Of a stretch of DNA of 42,666 nucleotides, positions 18,487-26,331 are shown in pieces. The position numbers and the translations under genes were made by a program. The stretch's first letter is position 1; every line of letters begins with the position of its first letter. This stretch comes from a bacterium (GTDB taxonomy: Bacteria; Sysuimicrobiota; Sysuimicrobiia; Sysuimicrobiales; Segetimicrobiaceae), in contig DATGJN010000044.1 of assembly GCA_035295165.1 (NCBI GenBank), positions 1 through 42,666 of the forward strand. The letters are read 5' to 3'. Under the pieces are notes generated by a model. That model was not told the DNA's origin, ran no database searches, and worked only from the letters and a program-made list of their open reading frames with translations.

Positions 18487-19872
18487 GTGGCTGAACTCCG
18501 CGCGCTGCTGAGGCCCGCCGCCCGGAGGGGCCGGCGTTTGATTGGGGGCGCGCTCGAACTCGGGCAGCGGTGCGCGGAGGACGCCTACATCTTCGCGAGA
18601 CTCCCGACGCTCCGCCGCGCCCGAGGCGGCCCGCCGCCGGGGGCGGCCCACTTGGGCGCGATTCGGTCGTGCATCGAGCGGGACTTGGCCGAGAACGTGT
18701 TACCCTTCTGGGCCCGTCACGCTCCGGACCCGGAGTATGGCGGATTCATCACGCATCTTGGCCGCGCCGGCGATCGCCTCGGTCCGACGGAGAAGTACCT
18801 GGTGATGCAGGCGCGGATGATTTGGACGCTTGCGGCCGCCCACCGGTACGGACTGACCGACCAAGGATACTTGGAGCTCGCGGATCAGGGCGTGCGCTTC
18901 CTGGTCGACCGGATGTGGGACGGCGAGCACGAGGGCTTCGTCTGGACGGTGAGCCGAAACGGCTTGCCGCTGGACGACCGCAAGAGTGTGTACGGGCAGG
19001 CGTTTGCGATATACGGGTTGGCGGAGTACGCGTTGGCCACCGGCGACCGGCAGGTTCTCGCGTGGGCAGAGCGGACCTTCGACACCCTCATCGCGAAGGC
19101 GACCGACGGAGCCCTCGGCTTCAGAGAGGAATTCGCACGTGACTGGTCGCCGATCGCGGACTGGCGCGGCGAGCGCAAGACGCTGAACGTGCACATGCAC
19201 GTCATGGAGGCCCTGATCACGCTCGCCGAGGCGTCGGGGCGGGAAGCACATAGTCGCGCGCTCCGCGGACTCGTCGACCTTCTGCTGGCGAAGACGATCC
19301 ACCCCCACCACGGTGGCGCTTGGGACGAATTCGACCGGACCTGGCACGCTTGGGTCCCCCCGCGACGCCGATTGCGGATCTCGTACGGACACGAGGTGGA
19401 GTTGGCGTGGCTCATCCTCCGCGCGATCGATCTCCTCGGCCAGCCGCGCGAACCGATACGCCGACGGGTCCTCGGACTGATCGACCACGCGCTGGTGTTC
19501 GGTTTCGACCATTGGCGCGGCGGGCTGGCGCAGTACGGTCCTCCGGCCGGTGCAGTAGGTCTGGCTGTCTACCTGCCGGCCGACCGTCTGACGAAGCATT
19601 GGTGGCAGCAGGCTGAGATGCTGGTCGCGTCCCTGGAGGCCTATCGCTGGACTGGCGCAGCGAAGTATCTCATCGCCTTCGAAAGACAGTTCGACTGGAT
19701 CTGGCGCTATCAAACCGACCACGACGGTGGGGACTGGTACGAAGCGACCACGTGGGATGGCCGGCCGCTCCGCCTCGAGAAGGGTCACGACTGGAAAGAC
19801 CCTTATCACAACGCCCGCGCGTTGATGGAAGCGTCCCTGCGACTCGGTGCCCTGGGCGTCGACGCGCGCTAG
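18487..19872 (+). CDS. AGE-family sugar epimerase/isomerase
   Basis: 461 residues from a GTG; the first 55 are rich in Arg and Ala and not part of the fold, so the true start may be downstream. The core is an (alpha/alpha)6 barrel of the N-acylglucosamine 2-epimerase family. Landmarks are NVLPFWARHAPDPEYGGF, N234-V-H236-M-H238..E241, SYGHEVELAWLI (H302, E303), WWQQAE (372-376) and KDPYHNAR (H441). This set is closest to cellobiose 2-epimerase and mannose/glucose isomerase types. The enzyme interconverts C2 epimers of a free sugar or disaccharide in the cytosol. It ends 88 bp from the convergent glycosyltransferase operon. Confidence 0.88.
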   Translation: MAELRALLRPAARRGRRLIGGALELGQRCAEDAYIFARLPTLRRARGGPPPGAAHLGAIRSCIERDLAENVLPFWARHAPDPEYGGFITHLGRAGDRLGPTEKYLVMQARMIWTLAAAHRYGLTDQGYLELADQGVRFLVDRMWDGEHEGFVWTVSRNGLPLDDRKSVYGQAFAIYGLAEYALATGDRQVLAWAERTFDTLIAKATDGALGFREEFARDWSPIADWRGERKTLNVHMHVMEALITLAEASGREAHSRALRGLVDLLLAKTIHPHHGGAWDEFDRTWHAWVPPRRRLRISYGHEVELAWLILRAIDLLGQPREPIRRRVLGLIDHALVFGFDHWRGGLAQYGPPAGAVGLAVYLPADRLTKHWWQQAEMLVASLEAYRWTGAAKYLIAFERQFDWIWRYQTDHDGGDWYEATTWDGRPLRLEKGHDWKDPYHNARALMEASLRLGALGVDAR

Positions 19873-19960: not shown

Positions 19961-20677
19961 TCAGTCCGTCCGGCGCCGCCGATCCAGCGACGCTTTGAGG
20001 ATCTGCACGTAGTCGGCCCTCGCGTCGCGCTCTCGCAACCCGAGGTTGCCGGTGTGCAAACGTCGCAACAGCACGACCTCGGGGAGCAGGACGCTCTTGA
20101 GCCTCTCGTCGTTGGCCCGCGCGTACCAATCGAGAAACTCTCCGACGCGCGTGTGCGTGGGGAACGGCCCCACCCGATCGAACGACGCCCGCGTCACCAA
20201 GAGGGTCCCCAACACGAAGCCCGGGAGCACCGCCCCCGCTCCGGCGATCCTGGCCTTCGTGCGCTCAACCAACTCCGGGCTGTGGAACTGCCGGGCGTGG
20301 CCGAACACCATGTCCAACGCGGGATCCGTCTGAAAGGCCGCGACCTGGCGCGCCAACTTGGTGCGCACCCAGAGGTCGTCCGCGTCGAGAAACGCGACGA
20401 ACGCGCCGCGGGCGAGCGCCACACCTCGGTTGCGGGCGGCCCCCGGTCCGGCGTGGCCCTGCGCGACGTAGCGGACACCGGGGAAGCGCGCGGCGACTGC
20501 CGCGCTTCCGTCCGACGATCCGTCGTCGACCACCACGATTTCCATCGGGGGCACGGTTTGCGCCAGCACGCTCTCGAGGGCGTCGCCGAGGTACCGCTCG
20601 CCGTTGTAGACGGGAATGATGACGCTGACCGAAGACGTTGGTGACGGAGGGCCGGCCGGTTCCGCCGCGCGTGCCAT
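19961..20677 (-). CDS. Family 2 glycosyltransferase (GT-A fold), copy 1
   Basis: 238 residues from the ATG at 20677. VSVIIPVYNGERYLGDALE begins the nucleotide-sugar-binding half, VVVDDGSSDGS follows, and FLDADDLW carries the DxD-type metal site. The C-terminus ends in LKASLDRRRR, a tail shared in varied form with the other two glycosyltransferases nearby. There is no membrane segment. It starts four bases after the stop of copy 2, so it is the last gene of the operon PqqD-like, HprK-like, glycosyltransferase 2, glycosyltransferase 1. It should transfer a sugar to a glycan, lipid or peptide acceptor that is not identified. Confidence 0.92.
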   Translation of the reverse strand: MARAAEPAGPPSPTSSVSVIIPVYNGERYLGDALESVLAQTVPPMEIVVVDDGSSDGSAAVAARFPGVRYVAQGHAGPGAARNRGVALARGAFVAFLDADDLWVRTKLARQVAAFQTDPALDMVFGHARQFHSPELVERTKARIAGAGAVLPGFVLGTLLVTRASFDRVGPFPTHTRVGEFLDWYARANDERLKSVLLPEVVLLRRLHTGNLGLRERDARADYVQILKASLDRRRRTD

Positions 20678-20681
20678 GGCC

Positions 20682-21443
20682 TTACTCGTCCGCCCGCGGA
20701 TCAGACGCACCGATCCCAGGCGCGGCGGGCGGCGTGAGACTCGGGAGCGACGCGGCGGTGCGGCCATGCCGGCGGCGGCGGTCGAGCGACCGCTTGAGCA
20801 CGTCCAAGACCCGCAGCTCCTTCATGGTGCGCCCGCGCGTCATGTTCTGCTCGTGCCGACGGTACAAGAGCGCGATGTCTTCCTCGACGAGAATCGGGAC
20901 GCCGCACTCCCGCGCCCGCATGAACCAGTCGGTGTCCTCACCGTAGCGCAGCGCTTCGTCGAAGGTGCCGACCCGTTCAAACGCGCGACGTCGGAACAGC
21001 GCCGCGGTGGGGGACAGCAACACGAACGGCGGGAAGCACACCTCGAGGCGGTCCGCTCCGCTGGCGCCGGTGTGTCGCACGCACTGGGTTCGGCCGAGGA
21101 CGACATCCACGCACGCGTTGCCGTCGAGCGCCCGCATCTGGCGACGCAGCCGGTCCGCGGGCCACAGGTCGTCCGCATCGAGGAACCCGATCACGTCGCC
21201 CCGAGCCAGCACTAACCCGCGGTTTCGTGCGCGCGCCGGCCCGGCGTTCTCCTGATACACATAGCGGAGCCCGGCCTGCGGGAGCCGGTTGGCGACCTCG
21301 GCGGTTCCGTCGGTCGAGCCGTCGTCGACGATCACAACCTCGAGCCGAGCGCCCGCCTGGTCGCGGACGCTCCCCACCGCCTCGGCGAGGAACGCCGCGC
21401 CATTGTACACCGGGATGACCACGCTGACGCACACGCGGGTCAA
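20682..21443 (-). CDS. Family 2 glycosyltransferase (GT-A fold), copy 2
   Basis: About 253 residues. CVSVVIPVYNGAAFLAEAV, VIVDDGSTDGT and FLDADDLW are the GT2 landmarks, and RYGEDTDWFMRA holds the acceptor-side ED motif. The start is not certain: a TTG at 21443 overlaps the TGA of the HprK-like gene (TTGA) with a G-rich run upstream, and a GTG at 21434 is an alternative. The tail LKRSLDRRRR resembles that of copy 1, and copy 2 has about 25 further Pro/Ala-rich residues. Coupling to the HprK-like gene indicates a joint function. Confidence 0.9.
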   Translation of the reverse strand: MTRVCVSVVIPVYNGAAFLAEAVGSVRDQAGARLEVVIVDDGSTDGTAEVANRLPQAGLRYVYQENAGPARARNRGLVLARGDVIGFLDADDLWPADRLRRQMRALDGNACVDVVLGRTQCVRHTGASGADRLEVCFPPFVLLSPTAALFRRRAFERVGTFDEALRYGEDTDWFMRARECGVPILVEEDIALLYRRHEQNMTRGRTMKELRVLDVLKRSLDRRRRHGRTAASLPSLTPPAAPGIGASDPRADE

Positions 21444-22525
21444 CGTGCGCCCCCCGACACCTGTGCCAGCACGTCTTGGATCGCCGCGGGGATCGCCGAG
21501 AGCGTCGACCCCAAGCGCAGCGCGTAGCACGGCACGCGCCTCACGCAGGCGGCGAGCGTTCCGAGCGTCGAATGGTCCATCCCGGCCAGCTGAAAGATCG
21601 TGCTCGGCGCGAGCGCCTTCAACGCCGCCGCCGGGGAGATCGGCACCGCGGACGTCTCCGGCCGACCCGTGACCTGGGGAACGAGGATCGCGCGCACGGG
21701 AAAGCCGGTCGTGATCCAGTCGCGTTGATCAGGATGCAGGAACAGGAGCGCCTTGTCGATCCCGAGATCGTCCAGCCGGCTCGGGAGGGCCGCGAGGCGG
21801 GGAAACCGCCCCAGGTCCTCGGCGTACACTTTCGCGGAGTTGAACAGGCTGTGCGCGTAGGGAACCGGATCGGTCGACAGCATGCAGTAGTCGTCCGCGG
21901 CGTAGAGCAGCTCCGTCCCGAGGCAGGTCAGCGCGGTCGTGGACTTGCCGGATCCCCCTTTTCCGACGAGCAGCACCCCCCCGTCGGGCCGGCCGACGGC
22001 GGCCGCGTGGACGAGCTGCCCGCCGCGCCCGTGCATCGCCCGCTGGAAGATTGGTTTGAGCGGAGCGCCGATCTCGTATCCCGGAAGCCGACGGGCGTCG
22101 CGCACGCAATACACGGCCAGATCCGCGGCCCCGTCGACCAGCGAGAGCACGCCCGTGCCCATATCGAAGCTCGCGTGGATGCGCTCGTCGCTATAGCTGC
22201 GCGACGCCCGACTGTTGATGTCGTCGTGCATCCGCCACGGCGGAGCGGGAACGCGGGGCAGCAAGGACTCGACGTCCCACAGGCACACGGTCAACGCGGG
22301 CCGGGCGACCGGCGCCGTCGCTAAATGCTCGAGCGCCGGGGCGATGAGCGGGACCAGCGTCGGCCCGGCAAACCGCAGCCGCACTGGGTGGCCGGCCACG
22401 AGATACCAGCGGTCGATCCCTCCGGCCGCGCGTTCCGCACGCCCGAACGCCTGGTGCACGGTCTCAAAGAACGCGGCCGGGTCGGGCGGTGCGACGTCGG
22501 AAGCGCGGGAGTTAAGGGTTCGCAT
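21440..22525 (-). CDS. HPr-kinase-like P-loop protein
   Basis: 361 residues. The C-terminal half is an HprK-type kinase core: HAAAVG (173-178), P-loop GKGGSGKST (188-196) and a Walker-B-like ADDYCML with D211-D212. The N-terminal half is not the DRTGG domain of true HPr kinase. No HPr or phosphotransferase gene is present, so it does not act in carbon catabolite control here. Relatives of this type occur next to PqqD-like and nucleotidyltransferase-like genes in peptide- or exopolysaccharide-linked loci, and in some lasso-peptide loci the HprK relative phosphorylates the peptide. The likely substrate is therefore a peptide or glycan partner. It lies 96 bp after the PqqD-like gene; no clear ribosome-binding site. 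Confidence 0.85.
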   Translation of the reverse strand: MRTLNSRASDVAPPDPAAFFETVHQAFGRAERAAGGIDRWYLVAGHPVRLRFAGPTLVPLIAPALEHLATAPVARPALTVCLWDVESLLPRVPAPPWRMHDDINSRASRSYSDERIHASFDMGTGVLSLVDGAADLAVYCVRDARRLPGYEIGAPLKPIFQRAMHGRGGQLVHAAAVGRPDGGVLLVGKGGSGKSTTALTCLGTELLYAADDYCMLSTDPVPYAHSLFNSAKVYAEDLGRFPRLAALPSRLDDLGIDKALLFLHPDQRDWITTGFPVRAILVPQVTGRPETSAVPISPAAALKALAPSTIFQLAGMDHSTLGTLAACVRRVPCYALRLGSTLSAIPAAIQDVLAQVSGGAR

Positions 22526-22621
22526 GACGGCTGGGAGCCGCCGCCGGATGCCGCACGCGGCGTCCCGGTTCGGCGTATGCGAGACGCACGAACGGCCGGT
22601 CGGTCATCGGTGAGTGACTGC

Positions 22622-23101
22622 CTAGGCCCGGTCCTTCGGCCGCTGCTCGGGTACACCGAGCGGCCGCACCGGCCAGCCGACCTCGTCGACTTCGTGGATC
22701 GGATCCAGCAGCAGCAACTCCTGCATGTCGTTGTATTTCCGGAGCACCGGGGTTTCGAACTGCGGGACACGCGGCGCCACGGTGATCGCTCCGGGGGCGG
22801 CGTCGCGCCCGCGTTCCCGGGAACCCGGCTGCTCGGGCACGATGAGACCCTCCGCGCTCAGCTCGTCGAGGAACGGTCGCACCGACGCCTCGACGTCAGA
22901 GGCGGCCATCGCGTACTGTGACGCAAGGTCGTCGATGATGCCGCCCGCCGTCGCCCCGTCGATCCGAGTCCAGATCTCAGCGGCGAGACCGTTCACGCTG
23001 TAGTAGACGCCCGTGTCAAGGTTGATGATCACGACCTCGTCGTCGAACACTTCGTGAACGACGGTCGGTGTGTTGACCGTGAACCGCAGGACCGTGATCA
23101 T
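22622..23101 (-). CDS. PqqD-like peptide-binding protein with a leader-like C-terminal tail
   Basis: 159 residues from the ATG at 23101, preceded by GGAGGTG at good spacing. Residues about 10-90 form a PqqD/RRE-type winged-helix domain (DEVVIINLDTGVYYSVNGLAAEIW, then a helical half ending ELSAEGLI), written here as DEVVIINLDTG plus VYYSVNGLAAEIW. PqqD domains bind leader peptides of ribosomally made peptides and hand them to modifying enzymes. A Gly/Pro/Arg-rich linker (91-113) leads to a tail, F115-P144, with FETPVL, KYNDMQELLLLDP and HEVDE-GWP blocks. FxxPxL resembles the YxxPxL leader motif that RRE domains recognise, so the tail may be a fused or mimicked substrate. It is the first gene of a four-gene minus-strand operon. 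Confidence 0.85.
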   Translation of the reverse strand: MITVLRFTVNTPTVVHEVFDDEVVIINLDTGVYYSVNGLAAEIWTRIDGATAGGIIDDLASQYAMAASDVEASVRPFLDELSAEGLIVPEQPGSRERGRDAAPGAITVAPRVPQFETPVLRKYNDMQELLLLDPIHEVDEVGWPVRPLGVPEQRPKDRA

Positions 23102-23369
23102 CCCGGACACCTCCACACGTGCCTCCGCGCACACTCCAGCCCGACCGAGCGGGCCGGTGCTCCCCGCAAGATGGACGATATGTTAAGGCTGTGTTTCGTG
23201 AATCGAAAAGGACACGCCTGCCTGGACCAACCCTGCCTTGGTCATCCGAACGATTCTTTCCGGGGCGCAAAGGATCAAAAATCGCGGGTTTGGCGGGTTT
23301 GAAGGATGTTCCGACGGGACCATCGGTGAGCAGGGGCGCCCACCACCGTCCCGGAACCACATCGAGTCG
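23102..23369. promoter_or_regulatory. Divergent intergenic region between the PqqD-like operon and the deacetylase
   Basis: This 268-bp region is AT-richer than its flanks, mainly at 23170-23300. On the minus strand AGCCTTAACATATC could hold a -10 box for the PqqD-like operon. A tandem 9-bp repeat (CGGGTTTGG, CGGGTTTGA) lies near 23285-23302. Small frames exist on both strands (43 and 46 codons), but none has a ribosome-binding site or a RiPP-precursor look, so I do not call a peptide gene. Confidence 0.4.
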
Positions 23370-24128
23370 ATGAACGCCCGCCCTGATCGCCCGACCGCGG
23401 CCCGGCGCGTGCTCGGGCTCTTCCACCGATGGAGCCCAGCGGCCGCGGAATGGGCGCTGGGGACGATCATCCGCGTGTCGACGCAGGACCCCGTCCTCGC
23501 CCTGACGTTCGACGACGGACCGCACCCCTCGTCCACGCCCCGGGTGCTCGAGATACTCCGGGCGCATCGAGCGCGGGCCACGTTTTTCATGCTCGGACAG
23601 GCGGCCGCGCGGTATCCCGCCCTCGTGCGGCAGGTCGCCGATGCGGGCCATGCTATCGGCAACCATTCGTGGGATCACCCCTCGTTTCCGGAGGTGCCGC
23701 GCCGGGAACGCCGCCGACAGATCGGCGCCTGCGGCAGAGCGATCGCCCCGTACGGCGAACGGCTCTTTCGACCACCGTACGGCGACCAGGACGACGCGTC
23801 CAGGCTCGACGCGCTGTGGATGCGCCATGAGGTGGTCGCGTGGGACGTGGACGCCGGAGATTGGCGGGGCGACGCGCCCGCCGTCGTCGCCTATCGCGTG
23901 ATAGCGCGCGTCCGGCCCGGGAGCATCGTGCTCTTCCACGATGGCAGTGAAGCGGCCCTGCGGGGGGATGCGGTCGACCCGTCGTCCATGTTGAAGGCGC
24001 TCGACCTGGTCTTCAACCGCCTGCGCGACACGTTGACGTCCGTCACGGTCCCCGACCTGCTCCGGCGAGGCCGGCCCCGACGCGTGCTCTGGCGTCAGCG
24101 CAACCGATTGGCGCTCGGCGGCGGCTGA
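23370..24128 (+). CDS. Polysaccharide deacetylase (NodB homology domain)
   Basis: 252 residues from the ATG at 23370; the frame is open further upstream, but that part looks non-coding. NodB motifs are present: TFDDGPH (46-52) with the catalytic Asp and metal Asp, H99 and H103 in NHSWDHP as metal ligands, FRPPYGDQ, the DAGDW segment and LFHDG with the catalytic His. The first 30 residues may be a short amphipathic or membrane-proximal segment rather than a clear signal peptide. It should remove N- or O-acetyl groups from a surface glycan. It overlaps the convergent glycosyltransferase 3 gene by 34 bases at the 3' ends, so the two are packed as one locus. Confidence 0.9.
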   Translation: MNARPDRPTAARRVLGLFHRWSPAAAEWALGTIIRVSTQDPVLALTFDDGPHPSSTPRVLEILRAHRARATFFMLGQAAARYPALVRQVADAGHAIGNHSWDHPSFPEVPRRERRRQIGACGRAIAPYGERLFRPPYGDQDDASRLDALWMRHEVVAWDVDAGDWRGDAPAVVAYRVIARVRPGSIVLFHDGSEAALRGDAVDPSSMLKALDLVFNRLRDTLTSVTVPDLLRRGRPRRVLWRQRNRLALGGG

Positions 24129-24811
24129 ACGAAGTGCTCGCGCTTGCGGGCGAGCGATCGCCTGACGACCTCGAGAAGATTTCGGTTCGACGCCGCGTCG
24201 GTGAGGGACAGATTCGCGTCGTGCACGCGCTTGTGGAGCAGCACGCGCTCGACCACGGCCGTGCGGACCCCCAGGTCGTGCGCGCGCGAGAACCAATCGA
24301 CGTCCTCGGCGGTGGACAGGCGCGAGTCGAACCGCCCCACGAGGTCGAACACCGACCGTCGCGCCAGCAGGGTCTCCATGATGTGACCGACGTGGTCGCC
24401 TTCGAGCAGGTCGCGCTTGAAAGCCGGGGGCGCCGCGCACCCCGGTTCGAGGAAGAAGCGCAGCCGCGCCGTCACGTACTGGACCTGAGGCCGGGGGCGG
24501 AGAAACCCAACCTGGGCGCTCAGCTTGTCAGGGGTCCAGAGATCATCCGCCGACAGGAACGCGAGCATGTCGCCACGTGTGACCTCGATACCGGTGTTGT
24601 AGGCGCTCGCGACCCCCGTCCCTGCTTGCGGGACGACGCGCACCGCCGGATACGAGCCGGCGATCGCGGCGCTGTCGTCCGCCGACCCGCCGTCGACGAC
24701 GACCACCTCGACGGGACGCAAGTCCTGCGCGAGCACACTGTCGATCGCCGCGCGCAGAAACCGCGCGCCGTTCTTTACGGCCACAATGACGCTCACCGTC
24801 GAGTCCGCCAC
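24095..24811 (-). CDS. Family 2 glycosyltransferase (GT-A fold), copy 3
   Basis: 238 residues from a GTG at 24811 that has AGGAGG upstream; the frame is open for 193 more codons, but that part has no protein character. VSVIVAVKNGARFLRAAID, VVVDGGSADDS and FLSADDLW mark the GT2 fold; the DxD site reads SADD, a variant common in this family. STAEDVDWFSRA is the acceptor-side ED motif. The C-terminus LEVVRRSLARKREH resembles the tails of copies 1 and 2. It is divergent from the nucleotidyltransferase-fold gene across 257 bp and overlaps the deacetylase gene at the 3' end. Confidence 0.9.
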   Translation of the reverse strand: MADSTVSVIVAVKNGARFLRAAIDSVLAQDLRPVEVVVVDGGSADDSAAIAGSYPAVRVVPQAGTGVASAYNTGIEVTRGDMLAFLSADDLWTPDKLSAQVGFLRPRPQVQYVTARLRFFLEPGCAAPPAFKRDLLEGDHVGHIMETLLARRSVFDLVGRFDSRLSTAEDVDWFSRAHDLGVRTAVVERVLLHKRVHDANLSLTDAASNRNLLEVVRRSLARKREHFVQPPPSANRLR

Positions 24812-25036
24812 CGCTGTCGCCCCTCCTGGATGTCCGGTGCCTGCGTCCGCCCGGTGCGACGCTTGGACGCCCATTCGTCGGCGGGGATGGTACACCCCTG
24901 CCGCGGAGGGCACGGGCGCCCGACCTCCGCTCGCATGATTGTCCTTCTTCAAACAGACATTCCCGTCCCCCAGAAGATCCGCCGGTTCATACCTCCGATG
25001 GGAGCGCCGCGGGCAGGACTCGACGTGAACGCACCG

Positions 25037-25042
25037 TATAAT
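25037..25042 (+). promoter_or_regulatory. Perfect -10 box upstream of the nucleotidyltransferase-fold gene
   Basis: TATAAT lies 26 bases before the GTG start at 25069, in otherwise GC-rich DNA. No convincing -35 hexamer is present at 16-18 bp spacing. Transcription would start about 20 bases before the start codon, leaving just enough room for the GGAGG site at 25054-25058. Confidence 0.45.
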
Positions 25043-25068
25043 GCGATGACGATGGAGGAGACGCGCGT

Positions 25069-26331
25069 GTGAGCATGAGTATCGGATACGCGAAACGAGA
25101 CCCCTGGCCCACGTGGCAAGAGGAACTGCTCTTGCGCGCGGCGCTGTTGCGCGGCCCCGAGGCCCTCGCCGCCTGGGCCCAATGGAAATCCACGATCGAC
25201 TTCGACGACATCGATAGTGAGTCGTACCGGCTGGTCCCCCGACTCTATTGCAGCCTGAGAGACCAAGGCGTCTCCGATCCGCTCTTGGGGAGGCTCCGAG
25301 GCATCTACCGGCGGACCTGGTATCAAAATCAGCTGCGGTTCCACGCGATGGCCCGCCCACTGCGGTTGCTGCACGCAGCGGGAATTCCAAGCATGTTGCT
25401 CAAAGGCGCGGCGCTGGTCTTACAGTACTACCGAGACTATGGCATGCGGCCGATGACGGACTTCGACATCTGTGTTCCGGGGAACCAGGCGTCGAGCGCA
25501 ATCCAGCTGCTGCGGGGCAATGGCTTTACCCCGTGCGGGGCGCCCGAGGACGCGCTGCTCGACGCCACGGCGCATCCTGACCGCCACTCCGAGATGGAAT
25601 TTCACGACGCCGCCGGACACGAGTTCGACGTGCACTGGCGGTTGTTCCCGGAGAGCATCGCGCCCGACGTGAGCGCGCCGTTCTGGCAGGACACGGTCGA
25701 GATGGATGCGCTGGGGACGCCCACCCGGGCGTTGAGACCGGCGGACCAGTTGCTGCACGTCTGCGTGCACGGGATCGTGCGCGGCGCCATCGGGTTCGAG
25801 GTGTCGAGGGTTCGCTGGGTGATGGATGTCATGACCATCCTCAGCACTTCCGGCGAGGCACTCGATTGGACCCGCCTGCTAGCGCAGGCGGGCCGATGCG
25901 GGTTCATCCCGCCGCTGCGGGCCGGGCTGACGTACGTGCGGCGCACACTCGACGGGCCGATCCCCGACCGCGTGCTGCAACAGCTTCGCGCCATGCCCGT
26001 GCCGCTCACCGATCGCATCGTCCACGCGGCGCGGATCGAGCCACCTGAGCGCTGGGGGCCACTGCTGACCGTGTGTGTCGGCTACCTCGACCACTCGCGG
26101 AGCCTACCTCCAGGCACCGGCGCGCTCCGCACGCTTGCCGGGATGCCCGGCTACTACCGCCGCCGGTGGCGAGTCCAGCGGGGCTGGTCCCTGCCGTTCG
26201 ACCTGGCGGTGCGGGGGGTGCGCCGGGTCGGGTGGACGGTGAGGCGGTACGGGCTGGGATGGGCGTCGCGGCGCGCCCGACGCTTGCTTTCGGCGCCCGC
26301 GCGTTTCTCCGCGAAGGCCGAGAAGCGCTAG
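25069..26331 (+). CDS. Nucleotidyltransferase-fold protein (uncharacterised, NTP_transf_5-like)
   Basis: 420 residues. The nucleotidyltransferase core shows LLKGAAL (110-116), RPMTDFDI (127-134) with the paired Asp residues, and EFDVHWRLF (185-193). The flanking regions are helical. Members of this family are found in exopolysaccharide loci and in lasso-peptide loci beside HprK-like kinases, where a role in modifying a phosphorylated peptide has been proposed. The start is GTG at 25069 (GGAGG ten bases upstream); an ATG two codons later is also possible. The basic C-terminal 70 residues (RRRWRVQRGW and similar) may bind membrane or nucleic acid. It ends four bases from the convergent ThDP-enzyme gene. 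Confidence 0.87.
   Translation: MSMSIGYAKRDPWPTWQEELLLRAALLRGPEALAAWAQWKSTIDFDDIDSESYRLVPRLYCSLRDQGVSDPLLGRLRGIYRRTWYQNQLRFHAMARPLRLLHAAGIPSMLLKGAALVLQYYRDYGMRPMTDFDICVPGNQASSAIQLLRGNGFTPCGAPEDALLDATAHPDRHSEMEFHDAAGHEFDVHWRLFPESIAPDVSAPFWQDTVEMDALGTPTRALRPADQLLHVCVHGIVRGAIGFEVSRVRWVMDVMTILSTSGEALDWTRLLAQAGRCGFIPPLRAGLTYVRRTLDGPIPDRVLQQLRAMPVPLTDRIVHAARIEPPERWGPLLTVCVGYLDHSRSLPPGTGALRTLAGMPGYYRRRWRVQRGWSLPFDLAVRGVRRVGWTVRRYGLGWASRRARRLLSAPARFSAKAEKR

Follow-up and report, generated by a model that had tools for sequence, protein, structure and literature searches.

A PqqD-type recognition element with a conserved leader-like tail in a kinase and glycosyltransferase cassette: a candidate RiPP-like system that may act on its own recognition protein

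The known RiPP recognition elements (RREs; RiPP, ribosomally synthesized and post-translationally modified peptide) are separate domains, and the peptide that such a domain holds is encoded elsewhere. In mycofactocin biosynthesis, a PqqD-type RRE (MftB) occurs with a family 2 glycosyltransferase (GT2; MftF) that acts on a ribosomal peptide product. The nucleotidyltransferase PsmN of the pseudomycoidin pathway is presumably a member of PF14907. In that pathway, PsmN puts hexoses onto the phosphorylated peptide (PMC9266682). The linear polyphosphorylated peptides (LPPs) have been described from Bacillota by Popov et al. 2026; their precursors carry the motif YxxPxVLxHQxIxFETxxS, the kinase (LppK) phosphorylates the Ser located 18 residues past the leader aromatic, and neither Thr nor Tyr is accepted at this position (PMC13381572). 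Here, we describe a cassette found in the window, that is, the whole 42,666 bases of contig C44 from a 4.79-Mb draft genome that is 97.9% complete. The cassette encodes a PqqD-type RRE protein with a conserved C-terminal tail, an HprK-like kinase, three GT2s (GT2a, GT2b and GT2c), a PF14907 (NTP_transf_5) nucleotidyltransferase and an AGE-type sugar epimerase, identified from gene calls and Pfam scans. From the sequence comparisons below, we tentatively read it as a RiPP-like modification set akin to the machineries of paeninodin and the LPPs, in which the RRE would carry its own leader- and core-like peptide and the kinase and the sugar enzymes would act in cis on the tail.

The cassette resembles the LPP systems in its discrete PqqD-type RRE, HprK-like kinase and PF14907-type nucleotidyltransferase, in an aromatic-xxPx[VL] RRE-binding motif, in its patchy distribution and in the glycan genes that often lie near it. 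Unlike in the LPP systems, the motif and the core are fused to the RRE and there is no separate precursor, the anchor is Phe, and the residue at +18 is Asp rather than Ser; in addition, the module has dedicated GT2s and an epimerase, and it occurs in cyanobacteria and two other phyla. Neither an SpI-like leader peptidase nor an MsbA-like transporter was seen in the window module (the SpI family was not searched for), and ABC exporters are present at the loci of Crinalium, G773 and G771. With the tailoring enzymes of paeninodin and pseudomycoidin (PadeK/PsmK and PsmN; PMC9266682), the module shares the kinase residues His-Lys-Asp-Asp and a nucleotidyltransferase of the hexose-adding kind, but it has no lasso precursor or B2 protein, and it has several GT2s and a leader-like tail on the RRE. 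The lasso RREs TbiB1 (5v1u), PbaB1 (9x90) and TfuB1 (6jx3) are the same domain by sequence, with conserved residues in the leader groove, whereas the module PqqD has an extension of approximately 60 residues that ends in the tail, and Ala/Ser instead of Asp/Gln at the position of the aromatic anchor. The HPr-rel-A system likewise pairs a kinase with a PqqD protein; however, the module scores far under the cutoffs of TIGR04352 and TIGR04353 (25.4 vs 200 and 21.1 vs 35, respectively). The cutoffs of the SynChlorMet models ScmC and ScmD were likewise missed by a wide margin (23.3 vs a cutoff of 125 and 38.5 vs 100), and no radical SAM gene was recognised. The module shares with mycofactocin the combination of a PqqD-type RRE and GT2, but a radical SAM gene is not part of it and its GT2s score 48-82 against a cutoff of 280.

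A lasso locus was rejected, in agreement with the first-pass annotation of this DNA: the genome of the window lacks the B2 leader peptidase (PF13471), as do 9 of the 12 carriers, and a precursor is absent as well. No asparagine-synthetase-like cyclase (PF00733) was recognised among the scanned window genes, a family that was not searched genome-wide.

The PqqD domain itself qualifies as a B1-type RRE of lasso clusters; its profile matches TbiB1 (5v1u, 6.7e-16) and PbaB1 (9x90, 6.4e-13), and LppB more weakly. After a variable linker at the PqqD C-terminus, the tail follows with the consensus FxxPxLxKYxDMxxLLLLDPIHEVDxxGWP. Fourteen PqqD proteins of three phyla carry the tail, among them cyanobacterial proteins and one from a named Crinalium plasmid, and all 14 neighbour the same full-length HprK-like kinase. 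In the window genome and in its relatives G001 (same genus) and G005 (other genus of the same family), the RRE domain and the variable linker are followed by the nearly identical sequence FxxPxLxKYxDMQELLLLDPIH[ED]VDEVGWPxRP. Between phyla, the identity among the 14 sequences is 0.86 for the 16-residue tail core, 0.66 for the tail, 0.36 for the PqqD domain and 0.07 for the linker. Residues D130, L134, L135, L137, D138, P139, H141, V143, G147, W148 and P149 are invariant (numbering of the 164-residue form that starts at 23116). Positions 129-130 read [TSN]-D, which resembles a helix N-cap, and residue 129 is therefore unlikely to be a modified Ser/Thr. The Thr ahead of the core that marks lasso or LPP cleavage is not present in the tail. 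Across the 14 loci, no small open reading frame recurs with the cassette, and none with a YxxPxL motif is shared. Thus, where the first-pass annotation had found no substrate gene, there is indeed no separate precursor, but it overlooked the conserved tail encoded within the PqqD gene, the best candidate for the substrate; it was probably correct to propose that the PqqD-like protein holds a peptide, and this peptide appears to be the tail of PqqD itself.

Structures of RRE-leader complexes place the motif [Y/W]xxPx[LV] of the leader in the RRE groove, where D70 of LppB holds the Tyr of LppA, and Q79 of PbaB1 (with E75) holds the Trp of PbaA (PMC13381572). The motif at the start of the tail, [FY]xx[PA]x[LI], fits the RRE-binding motif of lasso and LPP leaders. 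Residue 78 of the window PqqD is the aligned equivalent of LppB D70; this position is Asp in TbiB1, LppB, TfuB1 and the lasso B1 of G005, and Gln in PbaB1. All 13 tailed proteins anchored by Phe have Ala or Ser at this position, and the only one anchored by Tyr (G844) has Asp. The other groove residues, Y38, S40 and L86, are nearly fixed. Such a pairing of pocket and anchor is suggestive, although no proof, and would be expected if each RRE fits the aromatic residue of its own tail. The tail probably occupies the groove of its own RRE.

By sequence, the window HprK-like protein is a divergent relative of HprK, because it scores far under every curated cutoff (Hpr_kinase_C, 16 vs 33; TIGR04352, 25.4 vs 200). 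The residues of an HprK-type P-loop kinase are all kept (P-loop, His and Asp-Asp): His173, Lys194 of the GKGGSGKS loop and Asp211-Asp212 are invariant in an alignment of 13 HprK sequences, and the importance of the same residues has been demonstrated in the lasso-tailoring kinases (PMC9266682). The protein aligns with the HprK structure 1jb1 across the active site, in a weak match (E 0.006), and a predicted model of its structure (score 34) was of no use.

The kinase, the nucleotidyltransferase and the glycosyltransferases, which the first-pass annotation had grouped from this locus, are co-conserved. GT2s are kept in 13 of the 14 tail loci, the exception being a cut-off contig, and PF14907 genes in 12; PqqD/HprK pairs that never keep either, the outcome named as refuting the grouping, are thus not what was found. 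Orthologues of GT2a are 65-67% identical in G001/G005 and up to 52% identical in the cyanobacterial loci; for GT2b, the values are 68-69% and approximately 44%. The nucleotidyltransferase has orthologues of 59% and 50-52% identity in G001/G005. In the orthologous proteins of Crinalium, G912, G719, G705, G646 and G701, the LLKG...DFD motif is lost, and at several of these loci a second, motif-intact PF14907 protein is encoded nearby. The annotation had not named the epimerase, which we count in the module because a 60% identical homologue adjoins the module in G005; a distant AGE gene occupies the same place in G001, and an AGE-type gene is also present at the G844 locus. The window epimerase retains the cellobiose-epimerase-type motifs NVHMHVMEA, GHEVELAW, WWQQ and WKDPYH. 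On the other hand, the NodB deacetylase, which had been included as part of the module, is absent from all 13 other loci and has to be removed from it. The third glycosyltransferase, GT2c, is an intermediate case: it is an insertion when the window is compared with G001, but GT2s of the same subtype, 43-53% identical, occur at 4 cyanobacterial loci (the G771 counterpart, 53%). Among plasmids, matches to GT2c at 1e-15 were limited to the tailed-PqqD cluster of Crinalium and one Deinococcus record.

The distribution of the cassette was followed in two separate sets of 386 genomes, one drawn from many bacterial families and one cyanobacterial, which are samples and not a census. Within the family, represented by 12 genomes with that of the window counted, the HprK orthologue occurs only in the window genome, G001 and G005; among 100 nearer and other genomes, it was again limited to the three tail carriers. 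The PF14907 orthologue and the tailed PqqD lie in the same three genomes, in the same cluster. The G001 locus is syntenic with the window and shares the flanking TPP (thiamine pyrophosphate) enzyme, DUF308 gene and ABC transporter; its order is nucleotidyltransferase, PqqD, HprK, GT2b, GT2a, GT2b' and AGE-type gene, and NodB and GT2c are missing. The G005 cluster runs nucleotidyltransferase, GT2a, GT2b, HprK, PqqD and AGE. The pattern DPIH[ED]VD[DE]xGWP, with at most 1 mismatch, was matched in the set of many bacterial families only by these three genomes and by G138, an AT-rich genome of another phylum, where a short contig carries a tailed PqqD gene with a full-length HprK-like gene immediately after it and then a glycosyltransferase gene. 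A broader pattern added only G367 in the same 386 genomes, which reads LDPIDEVD and was rejected as chance, and matches on two viral contigs (L055 and L056) were discarded since the motif is encoded in no reading frame. None of 195 genomes of the Myxococcota-like phylum (G070) was positive.

In the cyanobacterial set, the tail was found at 9 places in 8 genomes, each time within a PqqD protein, and each of the 9 loci encodes a full-length orthologue of HprK together with GT2s, among which the subtypes a, b and c are seen repeatedly. When the HprK alignment was used independently to search these 386 genomes, it gave nine strong matches (E<1e-70), which are exactly the nine tail loci; the remaining matches are weaker than 1e-34, so that every strong HprK has a tailed PqqD. 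A single 623-residue protein of G844 combines PqqD, the tail, here internal, another RRE-like stretch and HprK, and the fusion gene has PF14907, GT2 and AGE-type genes as its neighbours. A translated tail search of 72,556 plasmids returned one record, pCRI9333.04 of Crinalium epipsammum PCC 9333, with the order tailed PqqD, PF14907, HPr kinase, FkbM methyltransferase and GT2, and, farther away, a second GT2, a second PF14907 and an ABC transporter.

Related gene sets were encountered around these searches. Similar PqqD/HprK2/PF14907 sets exist in many relatives (L035-L046), and none of those loci match the module GT2s; in the same family (L035, L037 and L039-L043), small sets of HprK2-like and PF14907 genes with ABC transporter genes and some short PqqD genes are widespread, without GT2s and without the tail. 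The HprK matches in G082 and G084, from two other families, were rejected as members of a different, RiPP-like set in which HprK-like, radical SAM and B2-like genes are clustered (L048 and L047, the latter with a PqqD gene). In the cyanobacterial family f283 (L084-L103; genomes of approximately 1.6-2.5 Mb, probably Prochlorococcus-like), a PF14907-like gene lies beside an HprK-PqqD fusion of approximately 510 residues, whose C-terminus is a different recurring tail that often ends in ENKNELCIK. The window genome also holds a decayed second copy of the module on contig C70 (L036:8800-10603), with an HprK fragment (36 residues, 50% identity), a GT2b fragment (94 residues, 64%) and an intact AGE-type gene that is 82% identical to that of G001. 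In G005, a lasso-like set adjoins the module (L033:17768-20000 and L034:66-816) and comprises an untailed ordinary B1, a PF13471 B2, a second HprK-like gene and a second PF14907 gene; it recalls the co-localised LPP and lasso clusters of Bacillota.

The sequences directly support a conserved cassette, a tail of extreme conservation with an RRE-binding motif and a matched pocket residue, intact kinase residues, and the lack of a separate precursor and a lasso peptidase; from them, we infer docking, phosphorylation and glycosylation of the tail. Under the proposed mechanism, the PqqD domain would bind the FxxPxL strand of its own tail, either in cis or between two copies, and the docked strand would present the adjoining DPIHEVD..GWP segment to the HprK-like kinase. 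Once activated, the tail, or the phosphate on it, would be decorated with sugar by the nucleotidyltransferase and the GT2s, and the epimerase would supply or adjust a sugar. Asp138 may accept an acyl-phosphate or may act as a pseudosubstrate. That the system is its own substrate, possibly via Asp138, and yields a protein-bound glycoconjugate or cofactor-like group in at least three phyla is conceivable, although we regard this fuller form with some doubt.

Several observations weigh against the tail as a cis substrate. It lacks a conserved Ser/Thr, and the position at aromatic +18, the LPP phospho-serine spacing, is the invariant Asp138; because LppK refuses Thr and Tyr there, the tail is possibly a pseudosubstrate. 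Its core is almost invariant, whereas RiPP cores usually vary, no sign of peptide release is seen in the evidence, and the internal tail of the G844 fusion is ill-suited to a released C-terminal peptide. The loss of the catalytic motif from the orthologous nucleotidyltransferase in several cyanobacteria points the same way, the match between pocket and anchor depends on a single evolutionary switch, and a two-sequence AlphaFold model was too poor for use and could not resolve the tail. The main rival draws on the absent Ser/Thr, the Asp, the invariant core and the G844 arrangement, together with the presence of the tail beside the kinase at every locus: the tail would be a docking element or pseudosubstrate, with FxxPxL filling the groove and a DPIHEVD..GWP helix recruiting or regulating the kinase, and the true acceptor (protein, peptide or glycan) would be encoded elsewhere. 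Yet no other acceptor is conserved across the 14 loci and a permanently filled groove would shut out an ordinary leader, which leaves this explanation rather unlikely in our estimate.

The first-pass annotation had also considered a surface glycan as the target, in which case the PqqD, HprK and nucleotidyltransferase proteins would be an auxiliary switch of a polysaccharide-type cluster acting on a glycan or its precursor. The cyanobacterial loci do contain sulfotransferases, FkbM, sugar dehydrogenase, SDR (short-chain dehydrogenase/reductase), NAD-epimerase, SMP-30/gluconolactonase, TPR and GH26 genes, and ABC or ABC-2 exporters, and LPP and paeninodin clusters occur within capsule loci too (PMC13381572). 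However, the genes that flank the module in the window encode peptide ABC transporters, BtpA and the TPP enzyme, neither a polysaccharide polymerase nor a flippase was recognised there, and the tail would be left unexplained; we consider this improbable. An enzyme set so similar to that of the LPPs might instead be a conventional trans-acting system served by a small precursor missed elsewhere in the genome, since precursors can be unlinked and very short, but the lack of a linked precursor in 14 loci and a pocket residue that suits the Phe of the tail, and not Tyr or Trp, make this highly improbable. Finally, the lasso-like set beside the G005 module could suggest a degraded lasso locus lying by chance next to unrelated sugar genes; with conservation across three phyla, orthologous GT2 subtypes and no lasso peptidase in most carriers, this is hardly credible.

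If the cis-substrate reading is correct, the arrangement would be new to the modification of ribosomal peptides or proteins: an RRE that carries its own leader-like peptide, which is far better conserved than the RRE and is accompanied in every case by one kinase. Such fused systems would escape genome mining aimed at separate precursors; in a survey of RREs, 21% of PF05402 proteins exceed the size of a discrete RRE without another Pfam match (PMC12710340). The question of the target of HprK, PqqD and NTP_transf_5 is narrowed to one 30-residue candidate.

Features of the cassette in the window, with coordinates on the 42,666-base contig
Feature	Position	Strand	Basis or remark
AGE / cellobiose-2-epimerase-type sugar epimerase (PF07221)	18538..19872	+	Pfam, 155 bits; module member in kin
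GT2a	19961..20677 (longer start possible at 20710)	-	Pfam; FLDADD motif
GT2b	20682..21443	-	TTG start overlaps HprK stop by 4 bp (TTGA)
HprK-like kinase	21440..22525	-	Conserved N-terminal domain; GKGGSGKS P-loop
PqqD/RRE protein with C-terminal tail	22622..23101 (or 23116)	-	PF05402, 59 bits
Conserved tail FETPVLRKYNDMQELLLLDPIHEVDEVGWP, residues 120-149 of PqqD	22670..22759	-	Leader-like FxxPxL and near-invariant core; candidate substrate or docking peptide
NodB-type polysaccharide deacetylase (PF01522)	23370..24128	+	Pfam; local neighbour, not conserved with module
GT2c	24095..24811	-	Insertion relative to G001
NTP_transf_5 nucleotidyltransferase (PF14907)	25069..26331	+	Pfam, 146 bits; LLKG...DFD motif intact

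All genes named by the first-pass annotation are present, and the junction sequences confirm its gaps in the minus-strand operon PqqD-HprK-GT2b-GT2a: 96 bp between PqqD and HprK, an overlap of 4 bp between HprK and GT2b, and 4 bp between GT2b and GT2a, where the ATG of GT2a lies 4 bp past the preceding stop codon. For PqqD, the start is best placed at the ATG at 23101, which has GGAGG upstream. The NodB gene and GT2c converge between the PqqD and nucleotidyltransferase genes, and the epimerase gene sits just past GT2a. The three GT2s scored 111, 116 and 64 bits in Pfam, and NodB scored 108. Near the contig end (445-1530), the window also contains a transposase-like gene with an rve integrase core, where the GC content is 58%, below that of the remainder.

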